Shown: piece by piece, positions 899 through 13,276 of the stretch
Layout of the letters: the number at the start of each line of letters is the position of its first letter
Position numbering within the stretch: the first letter of the stretch is position 1
IMG/VR virus record: IMGVR_UViG_3300049919_000129
Span: 1 to 56,382 of that record
Source of the DNA: a virus
DNA: 56,382 nucleotides
Strand: one strand, 5' to 3'
The notes under the pieces: model-generated
The model's database searches: none
The model's input: the letters and a program-made list of their open reading frames with translations, nothing else
What the model was told of the DNA's origin: nothing
Position numbers and translations under genes: made by a program

Positions 899-919
899 AG
901 AAATCCATAGGAGTTTGTG

Positions 920-1390
920 ATGAGCGCAGCACTTAATAATTTATTTGGAATGAAGCCAGAAGGGGATACTTACGAAGTTTCTCCTTCTTATCACACAGAT
1001 ACTCCTATGGAATCGGTGCTGAAAGAAGTGTCGCCAGAGGATGATGTTAATACCGAGGAAGAAGACTTCAAATACACTCGGAAAAACCAATACGACTTAA
1101 TTGAGGTCGGTAAGGCTGCTGTTCAGACCGCACTTAAAATCGCAAGTGAGTCAGAGCAGCCGAGGGCAATTGAGACGTTGGCTTTGATGTTGAAAACCGC
1201 TAGCGAAATGAACAGACAATTAACCATGATGTCGAAAGATAAATCTGAAGCCAAGAAAGCTAAGAATGAGGTTAATGTTGGTCAGGCTGTTCCACAGATT
1301 GGAAATCAGACGAATAATATGGTTGTTATGAGCGGCAGTTTAGAAGAAGTTCTAGCAAAAATAAAGAAAGATAGAAATGAACCTATCTGA
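920..1390 (+). CDS. 16: Small terminase subunit gp16
   Basis: The product of 156 residues is the expected size for the small terminase subunit, which recognises concatemeric phage DNA and stimulates the ATPase and nuclease of the large subunit. It has an acidic N-terminal stretch, a central helical segment rich in Ala, Leu and Glu (about residues 50-110, the likely oligomerisation coiled coil) and a polar tail. An in-frame GTG at 917 is possible, but AGGAG at 910-914 is correctly spaced only for the ATG at 920. The 3' end overlaps the start of the large-subunit gene by 14 bases, which suggests translational coupling. Identification rests on size, composition and synteny. Confidence 0.82.
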   Translation: MSAALNNLFGMKPEGDTYEVSPSYHTDTPMESVLKEVSPEDDVNTEEEDFKYTRKNQYDLIEVGKAAVQTALKIASESEQPRAIETLALMLKTASEMNRQLTMMSKDKSEAKKAKNEVNVGQAVPQIGNQTNNMVVMSGSLEEVLAKIKKDRNEPI

Positions 1391-1781
1391 AATCGCTGAA
1401 TTCATAGAAAAGCTCAGCTTCAAAAACAACCAAAATCTTCGACCGGTTGGAGTGTCTTTTCCGTATACCGAAGCGGACATCCTAGAAGTCGCAAAGTGTG
1501 AGGCAGACCCGATATATTTCATCGAAAATTACATAAAAGTTATTCACCCAGATAGAGGGCTTGTTCCCATGCTTCTGCATGGATATCAAAAGAGAATGGT
1601 GACTGCATATCACACGAACAAGCAGGTCGTTACTATGGCATCACGACAACTCGGAAAATGTTGCTGCATAAATACTAAAGTTAAGGTTAGATCAAAAATA
1701 ACCAATACAACATACGAATTAACTTTAGGAGAATTTTATGAGTGGAACAGGTTTAAAGAAATGCTCAGGATGCCAATCTGA
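1377..1781 (+). CDS. 17: Terminase large subunit gp17, N-terminal half with N-part of a split intein
   Basis: This 134-codon gene encodes only the start of the packaging motor ATPase. Residues 1-94 are N-extein and end in 'TMASRQLGK', the first half of the Walker A loop (T4: SRQLGKTT). Residue 95 starts an intein: 'CCCINTKVKV' fits intein block A with a catalytic Cys1, and 'LTLGEFYEW' is typical of the short N-part of atypically split inteins. The last 12 residues are encoded within the overlap with the endonuclease gene and the frame stops at 1781. Intein block B is not here but in the second half. On its own the product cannot bind ATP. It must be trans-spliced to the product of 2796-4523, giving about 547 residues. 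Confidence 0.9.
   Translation: MNLSEIAEFIEKLSFKNNQNLRPVGVSFPYTEADILEVAKCEADPIYFIENYIKVIHPDRGLVPMLLHGYQKRMVTAYHTNKQVVTMASRQLGKCCCINTKVKVRSKITNTTYELTLGEFYEWNRFKEMLRMPI
1659..1778 (+). other. N-terminal fragment of the split terminase intein
   Basis: This forty-codon region begins at Cys1 (1659-1661), immediately after the Lys codon of the P-loop. It holds block A only (Cys, then Asn-Thr-Lys-Val at positions 5-8) and the LxLGEFYE segment. Canonical split inteins break after block B, at about residue 100. Here the break is before block B, as in the AceL-TerL type described from viral metagenomes. The ribosome-binding site of the inserted endonuclease gene (AGGAG, about 1726-1731) lies inside this coding stretch. 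Confidence 0.85.
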
Positions 1782-2820
1782 ATTTCATCCAGCGCATCCA
1801 AACCGCAAATTGTGCAACACATGTAGCGGTAAAAAGGTGTGCCAGATATGTCGTGGATATTTTGATAGGGTATATCATGTAAAGCAAGGAAAACATCACG
1901 TGAAATGTCATGCTTGCATGGTAAAGGGATCAAAAGAATTATTCGACGGCGCTCACATAGAGTCATACGTAGAATGTAACCTGTGCGGATACAAATCACA
2001 AGAGATAGGACTTCATCTAAAAAACGTACACGGGATATCCGCCGAAATATACGGAAAGCCGACAAAATCAAAGGATATGTGTGATAGGGTTCGCGGGGAT
2101 AAAAATCCAGCATATAACCATGGTGGCAGACTCTCTCCTTGGTCACTAAAATCCGAATATCACACCAAGGAACAAGTGGAAGAGTGCCGAAAGGTATCGT
2201 TGGAAAAGGCTAGGGCTAATGAAAACTGGAGTGCGCACACTACCACGCTGGATTTCTATTTAAATAAGGGAATGTCTGAAGATGACGCAAAGGCAGCACA
2301 ATCGGAACGCCAGACGACCTTTAGTCTAGAAAAGTGTCAGGAAAAGCATGGGATGTTGGAGGGATTTGCCGTGTGGCAGGATAGGCAGGATTCATGGCAA
2401 GACACCCTAAAGGCAAAACCAGAAGAAGAAATGCGAGAAATAAATAAAAGGAAAGTCTGGCGAAATGGGAAAACTTCAAAGACGGAATTGGAATTGCTCT
2501 TAGAGATTCAAAAACAGCTGGAAGTGAATTCTCAATTCATGATAGCAAATGAACGATCCTACTACTTCTTTGATATTGCCCTTGGAAATAAACTCATCGA
2601 ATTCAATGGGGATTATTGGCATGCCAACCCTAATAAATACAAAGATGAAAATAAGATAATCTATCGAGATAGAACCGCTAAGGTCATTTGGGATAGGGAT
2701 GAAAAGAAGATAAACACAGCAAATGAAAACGGATATGAAGTTCTCACCATATGGGAATCCGATTTCAAAAAGAATAAGGATGAAGTTATCGCACGATGTA
2801 TAACCTTTCTGACGAAGTAA
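1738..2820 (+). CDS. Vsr-like (EDxHD-type) homing endonuclease between terminase halves
   Basis: The product of 360 residues comes from a third reading frame. It overlaps the N-half gene by 44 bases and the C-half gene by 25. N-terminal zinc-binding pairs are visible (Cys9/12/26/29 and Cys35/38/57/60), followed by a C2H2-like finger (Cys80, Cys83, His93, His98). Residues about 248-345 look like a Vsr/PD-(D/E)XK nuclease: Glu250, 'FDIALGNKLIEFNGDYWH' (Asp279, Glu288, His295), Asp321 and the closing 'GYEVLTIWESD'. This matches the endonuclease family reported with fractured phage genes. It probably cuts intein-free terminase alleles near the P-loop codons and so spreads the split intein. AGGAG with good spacing precedes the ATG, and 'ATAAATACTA' at 1668-1677 may be a late promoter. 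Confidence 0.88.
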   Translation: MSGTGLKKCSGCQSEFHPAHPNRKLCNTCSGKKVCQICRGYFDRVYHVKQGKHHVKCHACMVKGSKELFDGAHIESYVECNLCGYKSQEIGLHLKNVHGISAEIYGKPTKSKDMCDRVRGDKNPAYNHGGRLSPWSLKSEYHTKEQVEECRKVSLEKARANENWSAHTTTLDFYLNKGMSEDDAKAAQSERQTTFSLEKCQEKHGMLEGFAVWQDRQDSWQDTLKAKPEEEMREINKRKVWRNGKTSKTELELLLEIQKQLEVNSQFMIANERSYYFFDIALGNKLIEFNGDYWHANPNKYKDENKIIYRDRTAKVIWDRDEKKINTANENGYEVLTIWESDFKKNKDEVIARCITFLTK

Positions 2821-3161
2821 CCAGAAAATTTGTTGATACAATTTCCGCCTCGGATTGGGAAATCGAGACGGAATCCGGCTGGGTCGACATTTTTCATATT
2901 AACAAAACCATACAATATGAAAAATGGATTTTGGAAACGGAATCTGGATTGCGGATAGAATGTGCAGATAACCACATTTTGTTCCTAGTGTCTGGGCAGG
3001 AAGTGTTCGTAAAAGACCTAGCTAAAGGGGACGTGGTACGAGGGCAGTTTGGAGGAGAAGTAGTATCCTGCGTAACCAAAACTTCCGAAAAGGAACACAT
3101 GTATGATCTTTCGGTTTCTGGAAATCATACATACTATGCAGAAGGATTACTGCACCACAAT
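2796..3161 (+). other. C-terminal fragment of the split terminase intein
   Basis: One hundred and twenty-two codons from the start of the second gp17 gene to the terminal Asn (3159-3161), followed by the +1 nucleophile Thr. The fragment contains blocks B, F and G, and its penultimate residue is His. Together with the 40-residue N-part it makes an intein of about 162 residues without an internal endonuclease domain, because the endonuclease has become a separate gene. Confidence 0.87.
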
Positions 3162-4523
3162 ACTACGGTTGCCGCCGCATATATCTGCTGGTATCTAATA
3201 TTCAATAAAGAAAAAACCGTAGCAATCCTAGCAAACAAGCAGGCAACTGCATATGAAATCATGGATAGGCTTCGTCTAATGTATGAATCTTTACCAAAAT
3301 TCATCCAGAGAGGGGTAATCACGTGGAATAGGGGTTCATTCTCCCTAGATAATTTGAGTAGGGTTTTTGCCTCAGCCACATCAAAAACTGCGATCCGGGG
3401 AAGAAGTCCGCAATTCGTTTATTGCGATGAGTACGCATTTATTGAAACTAGTCAGGCAGAAGAATTTTTCACTGCCGTATATCCGGCGCTTTCCGCAGGG
3501 AAAGAATCGAAGATGGTAATATCTTCAACTCCGAATGGCTTCAACTTTTTTGAAAAGCTCTGGAAAGAAGCGGAGAAGGGGATAAATGGGTTCGTCCCAA
3601 TTTTATGCATGTGGAATGAACACCCTGACCGAGATCAGAAATGGCTAGACGAACAAGTTGCAGCGTTAGGGGAGTTGAAATCTAACCAAGAGATATTCTG
3701 CACCTTTCTTGGAAGCTCGAAGCAGCTTCTTTCTGCCGCTGCCTTATCCCGCCTGTCATATGACACCCCAATTAAAGAATACCTAGATCAATATCGTGGA
3801 TTAAAGATTTACACCGCCCCAATTAAAGGGCACTCATACGTCACGACAGTCGATGTCTCTCGTGGTAGGCACTTAGATGCATCTGCGTTCTGGGTAGTTG
3901 ATGTTACCCAACAACCATATACCATCGCAGCTACATATAACAACAACGAAATATCTCCAATGATGTATGCAACCTTGCTACATCGAGTTTGCACTAATTA
4001 CAACGATTCTTATACCCTCATTGAGATAAACGATGTAGGCGCTCAGGTTGCGGATATTATGTATTCGGAATTGGAATACGACTCGATGTTCTGGACAAAA
4101 TCTGGAGATCAAGTTGGTAGGAAGGGGGCCGATCCTTACCCCGGAATCAGGACTACGAAGAAGACTAAAAGAATAGGATGTGCAAATCTGAAGGATTTGG
4201 TTGAGAAGAATAATTTAATTATTAATGACTTTCAGACGATTCAGCAGTTAAGCACCTTCGTACAATCCAAGACAGGATCATATGAAGCAGATGAGGGATT
4301 TAATGATGATATGGTCGCATGTGGATTTCTTTTTGCTTGGTTAGCATCACAACCATGGTTTAAAGATTTAACAGATCAGGATATGCGCATGCAAATGTAT
4401 TCGCAGGCGGAAAAGGATATCGAAGACGATCTACCAAAAGGATTTGGTTTTGCTGATGGAACTGAAGAATATGCTTCAGGGAATTTATCTTATGACAAGG
4501 AAGCCATGGCGGTTTTGCTTTGA
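2796..4523 (+). CDS. 17: Terminase large subunit gp17, C-terminal half with C-part of the split intein
   Basis: This gene encodes 575 residues. Residues 1-122 are the intein C-part: block B-like 'CADNHILF', then 'EHMYDLSVSGNHTYYAEGLLHHN' split over blocks F and G, ending with the catalytic Asn. The extein resumes with Thr-Thr at 3162, completing the Walker A loop as SRQLGK+TT. The ATPase Walker B is 'FVYCDEYAFI', with the coupling motif 'SSTPNGF'. The packaging nuclease acidic residues appear in 'TTVDVSRGRHLDASAF', 'LIEINDVG' and 'NDDMVACGF'. The frame is the same as the N-half. The nearest ribosome-binding sequence (AAGGA, 2776-2780) is far from the ATG, so translation may be coupled to the endonuclease gene. 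Only trans-splicing yields a working motor. Confidence 0.92.
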   Translation: MYNLSDEVTRKFVDTISASDWEIETESGWVDIFHINKTIQYEKWILETESGLRIECADNHILFLVSGQEVFVKDLAKGDVVRGQFGGEVVSCVTKTSEKEHMYDLSVSGNHTYYAEGLLHHNTTVAAAYICWYLIFNKEKTVAILANKQATAYEIMDRLRLMYESLPKFIQRGVITWNRGSFSLDNLSRVFASATSKTAIRGRSPQFVYCDEYAFIETSQAEEFFTAVYPALSAGKESKMVISSTPNGFNFFEKLWKEAEKGINGFVPILCMWNEHPDRDQKWLDEQVAALGELKSNQEIFCTFLGSSKQLLSAAALSRLSYDTPIKEYLDQYRGLKIYTAPIKGHSYVTTVDVSRGRHLDASAFWVVDVTQQPYTIAATYNNNEISPMMYATLLHRVCTNYNDSYTLIEINDVGAQVADIMYSELEYDSMFWTKSGDQVGRKGADPYPGIRTTKKTKRIGCANLKDLVEKNNLIINDFQTIQQLSTFVQSKTGSYEADEGFNDDMVACGFLFAWLASQPWFKDLTDQDMRMQMYSQAEKDIEDDLPKGFGFADGTEEYASGNLSYDKEAMAVLL

Positions 4524-7591: not shown

Positions 7592-10588
7592 ATGCAATTA
7601 TTTGGCATCAATATCGAGAAGATCAAAACTGCGGAGGAAAAATCCGCAGCTATAGTGGCCCCATCCAATGAGGATGGGGCTTCTCAGATCGTATCCTCTG
7701 GAAGTGCATTCTTTGGCGTTTATCTAGACGTTGAAGGTGCAATCAAGAATGAGTCACAGGCTATACAGAGTTATCGTGAGATAGCTTCGTATGCCGAGGT
7801 TGATGCTGCCATTTCAGACATCGTGGATGAAGCTATCCCGAACGAAGATGATTCATCGCAAATCGATCTGATCTGTGATGAAGAGATATCGGAAAACATA
7901 CGAGAGAGCATTCAGGCTGAATTTAAAACAGTCCTGAATCTTCTTAATTTTGGAGATGTTGGTTCTGATGTTTTTCGCCAGTGGTATGTTGATGGTCGAA
8001 TTAATTATCAAGTTCTTGTGGATAAAAATAACCCAAATCGTGGAATCCTAGAACTGCGCAAGATCGAAGCTACCAAGATTAAAAAGATTCGTGAAATAAA
8101 AAAGGAAAAGTCTGAGTCCGGTGTTGATATCATCACAGGGGCGGAAGAGTATTTCTTGTTCAACGAAGCTGGATTTATCACCTCTGCTGGTCCAAGTTCT
8201 AATAGTGTTGCGGGGGCTGCTGTTGGAGTTAAACTAAGCCCAGACTCCGTAATTTATGTCCCCTCTGGTTTGACTGATGTTACAGGGCAGACAGTTCAAG
8301 GACATTTGCATAAAGCAATTCGCCCCGTCAACCAACTCAGGTTGATGGAAGACTCGCTGTTGATTAATCGTATCGCACGAGCACCCGAACGACGTATTTT
8401 TTATGTCGATGTTGGTACTTTACCAAAGGGTAAGGCAGACCAATATATGAAAGATATCATGAACCAATATCGTAATAAGATGGTTTATGACTCGGTTACT
8501 GGACAGGTGAAATCGGAAAAGAAACACCAGTGTTTGGCAATGGACACAAAAATCCCTCTGCTGGATGGCAGAACCCTAACAATCGAAGAAATCGCAAAAG
8601 AGTATTCTGCTGGGGAAACCCTATGGGCATATTCTTGCGATCCTATCACAGGCAAGTTCGCACCGGGTCTTATTTCATGGGCAGGGAAGACCCGTGAGAA
8701 TGCAGAGGTCTTGACCATCACGTTGGATAACGGAAAAACAATTACCTGCACCCCAGATCATAAATTTCCTGTGTGGAATAAGGGATTCGTCTCTGCAGAA
8801 GACTTACTGATCGGTGAGTCGATGGTTCCACACTATACTCGGGATGAAGTCCTAAACAAAAAAACGAACCAAAGAGACAGAAAACCTAAACCATATGCAC
8901 AAATTTTCGCAAATGATCTAAAAAAATGGCAATTCTTGCATCGAGCTGTTTCTGCTTGGAAGGATTCCGTTGGTATTGACAATGAATTCGTGTATAAAGA
9001 ATCCCGCTTTGATCTAGATAAGAAAACCATACATCATAAAAACTTCAACAAGTTTGACAATTCACCGGACAATCTCGTTCGCATGAATTCTTCTGATCAT
9101 GCGAATTATCATAGGAACATAATTTCTCTAGAAGTCAGACAAGCAATGGGAAGACATACTCGCGATCTAGGGCTTGGATTCTTTAATAGAAATCATCCAG
9201 AATATCATCAGTGGCATGTAAACGCAGGGCATTCTGGTGGAACCGCATCTTCTATCAGCGGGGCTTCGTTGGCCAACTACGCAAAGGGTCGCACAGTTCT
9301 GGCCGATCTGATGCAAGACCAAGAATGGAATTCGTGGTTTAGAGAGCAACAAACACTCGGATGGACTGCTGATCTACGGAAAAAATCTAGCGACAATGCA
9401 AAACTGCACGGGCTATCTGCAAAAGGAAATGCCGCCAAACAGGAGCTTTACGCAGACAAAGATTCTGATACCTGTAAGTTGCACTCCCTTCGATATAAGA
9501 CAGAGTATTCACAGAGCATAATTGAACACGTCATGTCTTATGCGCAGCAGCAGTTTAGTGCAAAAGAAGCAGCAAGACTCATCAACGAATGTTCTGATTT
9601 GGTTGCCGAATTTGCTGAAATGAACGCAGATAAAGTGATGTCGAATAAAGATTACTCAAAAATCACAGACGACGATGTGACTCGGATTGCATTGCATCTC
9701 GTTGGCGGATACACTAAACTAAAAGAATCGATGCAATTCAGGAATCATAAAATTGTTAATATCGAGCGGTTGACTGATCGCATGGACACTGGGTGTATAA
9801 CAATCGACGGCGAAGAAAAATACCATAATCATCACACCTTTGCATTGGATGCTGGAATTTATACCAGAAATTCGATGTTGGAAGATTACTGGCTTCCACG
9901 TAGAGACAATTCAAAGTCAACTGAAATCACTACTCTCCCCGGTGCCACAAATTTAAATCAAATTGATGATGTTACGATATTCAAGACGAATATGTACCAG
10001 TCATTAAATGTTCCAATGTCAAGAATGCAACCAGAGACTGGCTTTAGTCTTGGTCGCACCACGGAAATTTCAAGAGACGAATTAAAGTTTCAAAAGTTTA
10101 TTGACCGTCTTCGCAAAAAATTCAGTCAACTGTTCTACGATACCCTCAAGACCCAGCTGGTACTCAAGGGAGTTTGTAACGATATCGAATGGAAAGAACT
10201 TCGTGAGTATATCCATTTCAGATTCCAAAGAGATAATTTCTTCTCTGAATTAAAGAACCTTGACGTTCTTCAGGCTCGTATGGCAATCATGCCCCAGATC
10301 GACCCATACCTAGGTAAATACTTTAGTAAGTATTGGGTACAGAAAAACATCCTCAAGTTCACCGACGAAATGGTTGAGCAGATGGATCAGGAAATCTACG
10401 ACGAGAAAGACGATCCTATGGCTAAACCTTCATTCGCTGGTGGCATGGACCCTAGCATGATGGGAGGCGGAGGCGGAATGCCGCCTCCACCAATGGGAGG
10501 AGACCCTAGCGGTGCAGATGGGTCTGGTCAGGACGATGATGGACAAGATCAACAACAATTTCCGCTTCAAGGGCAACAGGGACAATGA
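7592..10588 (+). CDS. 20: Portal protein gp20 containing an intein
   Basis: The precursor has 998 residues. Residues 1-313 and 761-998 together form a portal of 551 residues (T4: 524). Portal signatures include 'YAEVDAAISDIVDEAI', 'WYVDGRINYQVLVD', 'RIARAPERRIFYVDVG' and, after the intein, 'MLEDYWLPRRD' and 'TEITTLPGA'. Residues 314-760 are an intein inserted between 'KSEKKHQ' and 'SMLEDYW'. The dodecameric portal is the head vertex through which gp17 pumps DNA, and it starts prohead assembly. The C-terminal tail is rich in Gly, Pro and Gln. The ribosome-binding sequence is weak. Splicing must occur before assembly because the insertion splits a conserved region of the protein. Confidence 0.94.
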   Translation: MQLFGINIEKIKTAEEKSAAIVAPSNEDGASQIVSSGSAFFGVYLDVEGAIKNESQAIQSYREIASYAEVDAAISDIVDEAIPNEDDSSQIDLICDEEISENIRESIQAEFKTVLNLLNFGDVGSDVFRQWYVDGRINYQVLVDKNNPNRGILELRKIEATKIKKIREIKKEKSESGVDIITGAEEYFLFNEAGFITSAGPSSNSVAGAAVGVKLSPDSVIYVPSGLTDVTGQTVQGHLHKAIRPVNQLRLMEDSLLINRIARAPERRIFYVDVGTLPKGKADQYMKDIMNQYRNKMVYDSVTGQVKSEKKHQCLAMDTKIPLLDGRTLTIEEIAKEYSAGETLWAYSCDPITGKFAPGLISWAGKTRENAEVLTITLDNGKTITCTPDHKFPVWNKGFVSAEDLLIGESMVPHYTRDEVLNKKTNQRDRKPKPYAQIFANDLKKWQFLHRAVSAWKDSVGIDNEFVYKESRFDLDKKTIHHKNFNKFDNSPDNLVRMNSSDHANYHRNIISLEVRQAMGRHTRDLGLGFFNRNHPEYHQWHVNAGHSGGTASSISGASLANYAKGRTVLADLMQDQEWNSWFREQQTLGWTADLRKKSSDNAKLHGLSAKGNAAKQELYADKDSDTCKLHSLRYKTEYSQSIIEHVMSYAQQQFSAKEAARLINECSDLVAEFAEMNADKVMSNKDYSKITDDDVTRIALHLVGGYTKLKESMQFRNHKIVNIERLTDRMDTGCITIDGEEKYHNHHTFALDAGIYTRNSMLEDYWLPRRDNSKSTEITTLPGATNLNQIDDVTIFKTNMYQSLNVPMSRMQPETGFSLGRTTEISRDELKFQKFIDRLRKKFSQLFYDTLKTQLVLKGVCNDIEWKELREYIHFRFQRDNFFSELKNLDVLQARMAIMPQIDPYLGKYFSKYWVQKNILKFTDEMVEQMDQEIYDEKDDPMAKPSFAGGMDPSMMGGGGGMPPPPMGGDPSGADGSGQDDDGQDQQQFPLQGQQGQ
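8531..9871 (+). mobile_element. Full-length intein with HNH homing endonuclease domain in portal gene
   Basis: In-frame element of 447 codons. It starts 'CLAMDTKIPLLDG' (block A, Cys1), has block B 'TCTPDHKFPVWN' and ends 'HHTFALDAGIYTRN' (blocks F and G) before a Ser nucleophile. The central domain carries 'TIHHKNFNKFDNSPDNL' followed by 'SSDHANYHRN' (about residues 478-512), an HNH nuclease motif. A helical region follows that may bind DNA. All residues needed for cis-splicing are visible except the usual penultimate His, which is Arg here. Confidence 0.92.
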
Positions 10589-12676: not shown

Positions 12677-13276
12677 ATGGATATTTATGGGCCTCTTCCA
12701 TACGTCTACAAAGTAACAAACATAGAGGATGGTAGATTTTATATAGGATGTAGAAAAGAAAATGTTGGAAGGAATAGATATGCTTCCGACGATTTATTAA
12801 AGTTTTATTTTACTTCTGGGAAATTGAAAGATGATATCAAAAAATTTCCAGAGAAGTATAAATATGAAATATTGATGGAATTTGGAGATTTCGACGTTAT
12901 ATTTTGGTATGAACAAATTTTGATAAGGGAAAATATAAAAAATCCATTGAATATGAATTATCGGGTTATCGACCCAGATAATGGAACACAAAAGTTATGT
13001 GGGTCAAAAGAAACAGCGGTGCCTAGAATATGGACGGATGCAGAAAAATTGGAAAAGTCTAACCTGTATTCTGGGATTCCAAAATCAAAAGAATTTGTGG
13101 ATAATATAACAGCATATATGGCATCTCCAGAAAGTGAAGAACACAGAGCAAAAATGTTAGCGGGACTCAGGAAAAGAGCAGCATCTGGAATTCCTTGGGG
13201 GCACAGAGATAAACCATGGTCGCAGGCTAGAAGAGATGCGCATAATAGAAGGAAAAATAATGAATCTGGAAACTAG
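12677..13276 (+). CDS. GIY-YIG homing endonuclease (Seg-like) between genes 21 and 22
   Basis: The product of 199 residues has an N-terminal GIY-YIG nuclease: 'PYVYKVTNIEDGRFYIG' at residues 8-24, a following Arg and a conserved Glu79 in 'FWYEQILI'. The C-terminal part is basic, with 'PWGHRDKPWSQARRDAHNRR' resembling DNA-binding modules (NUMOD3-like) of phage endonucleases. Free-standing Seg endonucleases in T4 spread neighbouring markers by cutting genomes that lack them. The gene overlaps gp22 by 17 bases and uses lower-GC codons than its neighbours, consistent with a recent arrival. AGGAG precedes the ATG. Confidence 0.88.
   Translation: MDIYGPLPYVYKVTNIEDGRFYIGCRKENVGRNRYASDDLLKFYFTSGKLKDDIKKFPEKYKYEILMEFGDFDVIFWYEQILIRENIKNPLNMNYRVIDPDNGTQKLCGSKETAVPRIWTDAEKLEKSNLYSGIPKSKEFVDNITAYMASPESEEHRAKMLAGLRKRAASGIPWGHRDKPWSQARRDAHNRRKNNESGN

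Follow-up and report, generated by a model that had tools for sequence, protein, structure and literature searches.

Fractured genes, in which two half genes each carry part of a split intein and flank a free endonuclease gene, were described together with the EDxHD/Vsr endonuclease family by Dassa et al. (2009), according to PMC6892783 and PMC12350094; AceL-NrdHF is also a fractured gene (PMC7891396). Atypically split inteins are known from TerL, the large terminase subunit, namely GOS-TerL (37/115) and AceL-TerL (25/104) (PMC11766414). TerL1-a of mycobacteriophages is a continuous intein in the P-loop of TerL, and some mycobacteriophage TerL intein endonucleases cleave the intein-free terL of related phages (PMC5050341). 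The locus considered here is gene 17, the TerL gene, of the virus record IMGVR_UViG_3300049919_000129, all 56,382 bases of which were analysed and are referred to as the window. Comparison with relatives confirms that the window terminase is encoded by a fractured gene 17 with an atypically split P-loop intein, which fits a known kind of mobile element.

The two halves of gene 17 share one frame (offset 1419 = 3x473), and their exteins match the T4 gp17/TerL families. Each half carries part of an intein and a nuclease gene lies between the two pieces, as in other fractured genes. Frame 0 contains 34 stops between the halves; thus, gene 17 is truly split and read-through is excluded. An earlier, sequence-only reading of this DNA had proposed that gene 17 is broken at its P-loop into same-frame halves with intein parts, that a third-frame endonuclease gene overlaps both, and that joining would give a product of about 547 residues. 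Re-derivation of the coordinates, frames and motifs reproduces this picture: the endonuclease gene occupies the +1 frame, sharing 44 nt with the N-half and 25 nt with the C-half, and the predicted ligation product is 94+453 = 547 aa long, with SRQLGKTT restored. That reading passed over the atypical nature of the split, which falls before intein block B and leaves a short N-fragment. A 40/122 aa division at this point, between TerL exteins, is of the type seen in the atypically split TerL inteins.

Class-1 intein motifs are present (Cys1 at 1659, CADNH, D104/H111, H121-N122 and Thr+1), along with Pfam and PDB matches. The N-intein reads CCCINTKV...GEFYEWNRFKEMLRMPI up to its stop codon, and its start is conserved in relatives as C..(I/L)NT.V ... 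GEFYE. The C-intein ends AEGLLHHN, and the C-extein begins TTVAAAY. The match of the C-intein to Pfam Intein_splicing (2.8e-8) lies just under the curated cut-off, and a C-intein profile matches VidaL, gp41-1, CatC and other solved inteins in the PDB, including split ones. The splice residues A57, D58, H60, D104, H121 and N122 are invariant across 11 aligned C-halves, and an HN^[T/S] junction is found in nearly all loci in which the junction was located. In pairs of split relatives the C-intein has dN/dS values of 0.07 and 0.10, indicating strong purifying selection.

The split gene 17 element is abundant in viral contigs: IMG/VR holds 265 candidate stretches with relatives of the endonuclease and at least 559 with relatives of the C-half. 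The layout of the window recurs in an independent contig, L002, at 58-64% identity in extein and intein. A window-type split gene 17 also occurs in a contig assigned by binning to a Nitrosarchaeum metagenome-assembled genome (L195 2978-5740), which is probably a phage contig within that bin. Related endonucleases accompany a split intein at Ser+1 in DnaB-like helicase genes (L016 6681-7403, L044 5955-6686).

The P-loop site is found in several states. It is empty in L091, L092 and Caulobacter phage Cr30. L091 and L092 encode the closest intact terminases, which are 63% and 60% identical to the window C-extein and read RQQGK-TTV and SRQLGK-TTT, respectively, the exact empty site. In Cr30, a relative of the endonuclease with 35% identity (L089 4995-6017) lies directly upstream of the intact gene 17; the P-loop of this gene has the unusual sequence SRQSAKST. 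A continuous mini-intein is found in the Ackermannviridae, and is annotated in Salmonella phage Maynard. The split state is accompanied by an endonuclease in the window, L002 and many others, and lacks one in L083, L084 and the cultured Delftia phage PhiW-14. The N-half of PhiW-14 gene 17 is unannotated (L086 3482-3949), and the annotated gp17 is without the start of Walker A. An intrinsic terminator was suspected by eye between the PhiW-14 halves; a scan found none there.

Comparison of trees provides evidence of movement. The C-inteins of the window, L002, L083, L082, L095 and L100 form one clade (99%). For the exteins of the same six loci a single clade is rejected (p-AU 0.001). Two intact terminases, L092 and L091, nest inside the terminase clade of the window. 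This conflict between the intein and terminase trees indicates that the intein moves horizontally. The window and L083 are 69% identical in the intein and 45% in the extein, while for the window and L002 these values are 61% and 63%. Sequence, empty-site relatives and trees thus agree on a split intein in the P-loop, as had been claimed.

A sister element displays a presence/absence polymorphism. L082 (5591-7180), but not L085 (5591-5627), carries a second atypically split terL intein with an HNH/NUMOD3-like gene, situated after AIRG.SIS; the two loci otherwise share 99.8% identity across the 5.6 kb upstream and 99.2% downstream. At the site itself ~37 bp differ, and the +1 residue is Cys in the filled allele and Leu in the empty one, a flank pattern expected of co-conversion. 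This comparison suggests that a +1 residue missing from the recipient can be provided by DNA that flanks the element and is transferred with it during homing.

The window endonuclease is less readily classified by sequence: its match to Pfam MTES_1575 is weak (0.004), and a PDB search with the sequence matched no EDxHD entry. In an AlphaFold2 model that draws on 17 relatives, the C-terminal domain is predicted with confidence, and its best PDB match by Foldseek is 3r3p (catalytic domain of I-Bth0305I; probability 1.00, TM on target 0.70), with E. coli Vsr (1vsr/1cw0) next. On the strength of this fold match the enzyme is predicted to be EDxHD/Vsr-like, in keeping with the Vsr-like assignment made earlier. 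Residues D279, E288, W294-H295 and E340 are invariant in the alignment of its relatives. The start of the endonuclease gene is at offset 79 in most relatives, and a motif resembling a ribosome-binding site is found in 27 of 37 loci. Nuclease genes at the same break in relatives belong to the EDxHD, T5orf172/GIY-YIG-like and HNH/NUMOD3 families.

Very probably, therefore, the element is a mobile split intein in the P-loop of gene 17, whose halves trans-splice to a 547-aa motor and whose endonuclease acts as the homing enzyme. A mobile class-1 intein, split near its N end, would have invaded the Walker A motif (GK^T) of gene 17 in a T4-like phage. Its 40-aa and 122-aa pieces would associate and trans-splice by means of Cys1, the block-B His, the terminal His-Asn and the +1 Thr, yielding a motor whose complete P-loop is in neither half alone. 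The endonuclease would be translated from the ribosome-binding site within the N-intein codons. Its expected activity is cleavage of intein-free gene 17 in or close to the P-loop, after which repair would copy the intein-endonuclease unit; homing of this kind may continue in the present day.

Table 1. Coordinates of features at the gene 17 locus of the window
Feature	Positions	Strand	Evidence
gp16, terminase small subunit	917-1390	+	Pfam DNA_Packaging 4e-7; PHROG terminase small subunit
Gene 17 N-half (N-extein + N-intein)	1377-1781	+	
Gene 17 N-extein, 94 aa, up to Walker A residues SRQLGK	1377-1658	+	PHROG terminase large subunit 1.7e-22; aligned to intact L091/L092
N-intein, 40 aa, Cys1 to stop at 1779-1781, split before block B	1659-1781	+	start conserved in relatives
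GGAG putative ribosome-binding site and endonuclease ATG, inside N-intein GEFYE codons	1728-1740	+	same offset in most relatives
Endonuclease gene, 360 aa, +1 frame	1738-2820	+	PHROG 22677 7.8e-20; relatives
Predicted Vsr/EDxHD-like catalytic domain	2473-2817	+	alignment, AlphaFold2 model, Foldseek
Gene 17 C-half (C-intein + C-extein)	2796-4523	+	
C-intein, 122 aa, block B CADNH, block F D104/H111, block G H121-N122	2796-3161	+	Pfam Intein_splicing 2.8e-8; PDB profile matches
Gene 17 C-extein, 453 aa, +1 Thr, rest of the ATPase plus nuclease domain	3162-4523	+	T4 gp17 6e-72; Terminase_6N and 6C

The surrounding genes follow a T4-like order (gp15, gp16, gp17, gp18, gp19, gp20, gp23), and the 3' end of gp16 overlaps the start of the N-half by 14 nt. 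The portal gene gp20 (7592-10588) harbours a continuous intein spanning about aa 314 to 745, within which an HNH-like motif lies in frame, so that one ordinary and one fractured intein are present in the same phage. Between the head genes, an open reading frame at 12677-13273 is SegE-like, of the GIY-YIG type, and just under the Pfam cut-off.

Several observations weigh against a mobile element with an active homing enzyme. The nearest empty-site relatives of the window are only 60-66% identical to it; none is very close, and any recent homing at this site is thus conjectural. The Foldseek E-values are weak (0.03), despite the probability and TM score given above. The identity of the window endonuclease to its relatives is low, at 44% for L002 and 29% for L082, and some split alleles have no endonuclease; for these two reasons the window-type enzyme may be replaced or idle. 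The last points also bear on the proposal that homing into the P-loop site is not the work of this endonuclease, which would instead be a passenger sheltered by the intein, or would cut elsewhere. A passenger would account for the varied nuclease families at the same break, for an endonuclease identity that is low relative to that of the intein, and for the alleles which do without. However, the same endonuclease family adjoins the intact gene 17 of Cr30, and the overlapping start and stop are fixed in the intein in most loci, leaving this proposal unlikely, though deserving of serious attention. It has also been considered whether the split is retained as a regulatory switch that delays or tunes motor assembly. 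Its position in the P-loop would make splicing a strict on-switch, and gp20 of the same phage likewise contains an intein, but the intact relatives and patchy distribution are better explained by a selfish element, and a switch appears quite improbable.

The remaining alternatives dispense with protein splicing or with a functional gene. Endonuclease-split enzymes made of two peptides do occur in phages, as in the ribonucleotide reductase case cited in PMC10448857, and the halves of gene 17 might similarly form a non-covalent, two-part motor without ligation. Here, however, the split is within the P-loop itself, the intein pieces are conserved with all splice residues, and purifying selection acts on the intein in relatives, all of which makes such a motor most improbable. 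An intron is known in the terL of phage ICP1 (PMC10448857), raising the prospect that the halves are joined by removal of a group I or II intron from the RNA, or by translational bypass. A search of the window against Rfam returned no match, including to group I/II introns, and an intron of this kind was rejected; moreover, the insertion is bounded by protein motifs of an intein and 34 stops lie in frame 0, so that joining by either route is scarcely credible. Finally, the gene could be dead or misassembled, and the sequence-only reading had itself raised the prospect of an assembly artefact behind the endonuclease insertion and the stops. The window is a metagenomic contig, but no other support for this was found. 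The TerL matches, the intein matches and the layout of L002 show that the arrangement is not due to chance; the same layout recurs in independent contigs of other samples, L002 and L195 among them, the reading frames are intact, and there is purifying selection in relatives. Chance and artefact are thus ruled out by L002 and many other loci, and a defective gene merits hardly any credence. The mobile, trans-splicing intein with its homing endonuclease is accordingly retained as the preferred account.

In six distinct relatives (L003, L119, L133, L138, L141 and L153), though not in the window with its 34 stops, the intein frame is stop-free across a complete +1-frame endonuclease gene, which is of the HNH/NUMOD3 type in L153 and the EDxHD type in the other five. 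Synonymous-codon shuffling of these endonucleases (2,000 trials each) introduced a mean of 14-19 stops and a minimum of 6. Codons ending in T do not precede codons starting with AA, AG or GA in any of the genes (0 of 90-118 per gene), while elsewhere in them about 30-40% of codons end in T (Fisher 2e-11 to 1.5e-16). This avoidance is lacking in the window endonuclease (34/128 vs 53/231, P 0.81) and generally in other split loci, the lowest values being those of L136 (P 0.004) and L140 (P 0.04), each of which has >35 stops. Among 99 distinct endonucleases, screened regardless of inteins, only the five EDxHD cases have no alternate-frame stops. Between L106 and L122 the endonuclease frame has a dN/dS of 0.09, and the intein-frame residues of that stretch are unconstrained. 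L104 (2903/2904) differs from L106 (810-1523) by an exact in-frame deletion of 714 bp that abolishes the endonuclease but leaves the intein frame open, and L003 is without a start codon at the C-half position. Given the stop-free frame, the T-codon avoidance, the in-frame deletion of L104 and the missing C-half start of L003, the six loci appear to be cis-inteins that are continuous and overprinted by an endonuclease gene; evidence of selection at the codon level is strong, and the existence of this form is close to shown. The intein frame would be held open by selection on the endonuclease codons. No description of an overprinted endonuclease in a continuous intein was found in the open-licence literature, the nearest precedent being the ShiLan insertion (PMC11855218).

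The overprinted loci form two supported clades plus L153 and are interspersed among split alleles; thus, the overprinted or split state has probably changed more than once. It is marginally favoured that there is one element with several interconverting states (split with endonuclease, split without, and overprinted cis-intein), and that the window may descend from an overprinted ancestor. The length of the gap is a multiple of 3 in 29 of the 38 loci that have an endonuclease. This was rejected as proof that the ancestor was overprinted, since the phase is kept by descent through the overlapping ends and the frame of the endonuclease itself.

These findings imply that a mobile element can cut an essential phage motor at its catalytic loop, across many phage lineages. 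The family supplies natural short-N split inteins with Thr+1, and its empty, continuous, split, overprinted and endonuclease-deleted members make up a comparative series for asking how split inteins originate. The overprinted relatives offer a measurable case of two proteins encoded by one DNA, a homing endonuclease and an intein that needs only an open frame. What is new here is the breadth of the family, the overprinted relatives and the L082/L085 pair. The sequence-only reading overstated the novelty of the arrangement: fractured genes, atypically split TerL inteins and P-loop TerL inteins have each been described before, and similar arrangements occur in the cultured phages PhiW-14 (split gp17, no endonuclease) and Aeromonas phage Aes508 (gp43, with an endonuclease).

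The protein nearest to the catalytic domain in fold, I-Bth0305I, is the prototype EDxHD homing endonuclease and is encoded in a recA group I intron, whereas the window enzyme lies between split-intein halves and has N-terminal modules resembling zinc fingers. The window resembles the fractured genes of Dassa et al. in its two half genes, split intein, free endonuclease gene between and phage host, and differs in its host gene and site, the gene 17 P-loop, and its atypical 40/122 split. With GOS-TerL and AceL-TerL it shares the TerL host, the short IntN and the long IntC. However, those inteins have Cys+1 with Ser1 or Cys1 (PMC11766414), whereas the window has Cys1 with Thr+1 in Walker A, and because of this difference at +1 the insertion site is probably not the same. 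The TerL1-a and Maynard inteins occupy the same position as that of the window, between Lys and Thr of the P-loop, but in a continuous gene. The ShiLan insertion (PMC11855218) resembles the six relatives in that an endonuclease is overprinted on a host frame free of stops, but intein motifs are absent there, whereas the open frame of the six is a recognisable intein; the window is not overprinted. Gene gp43 of Aes508 has the same overlapping order of N-half, VSR-like endonuclease and C-half as the window, but there the host is a DNA polymerase and the split is of the typical kind (about 120 / 40 aa).
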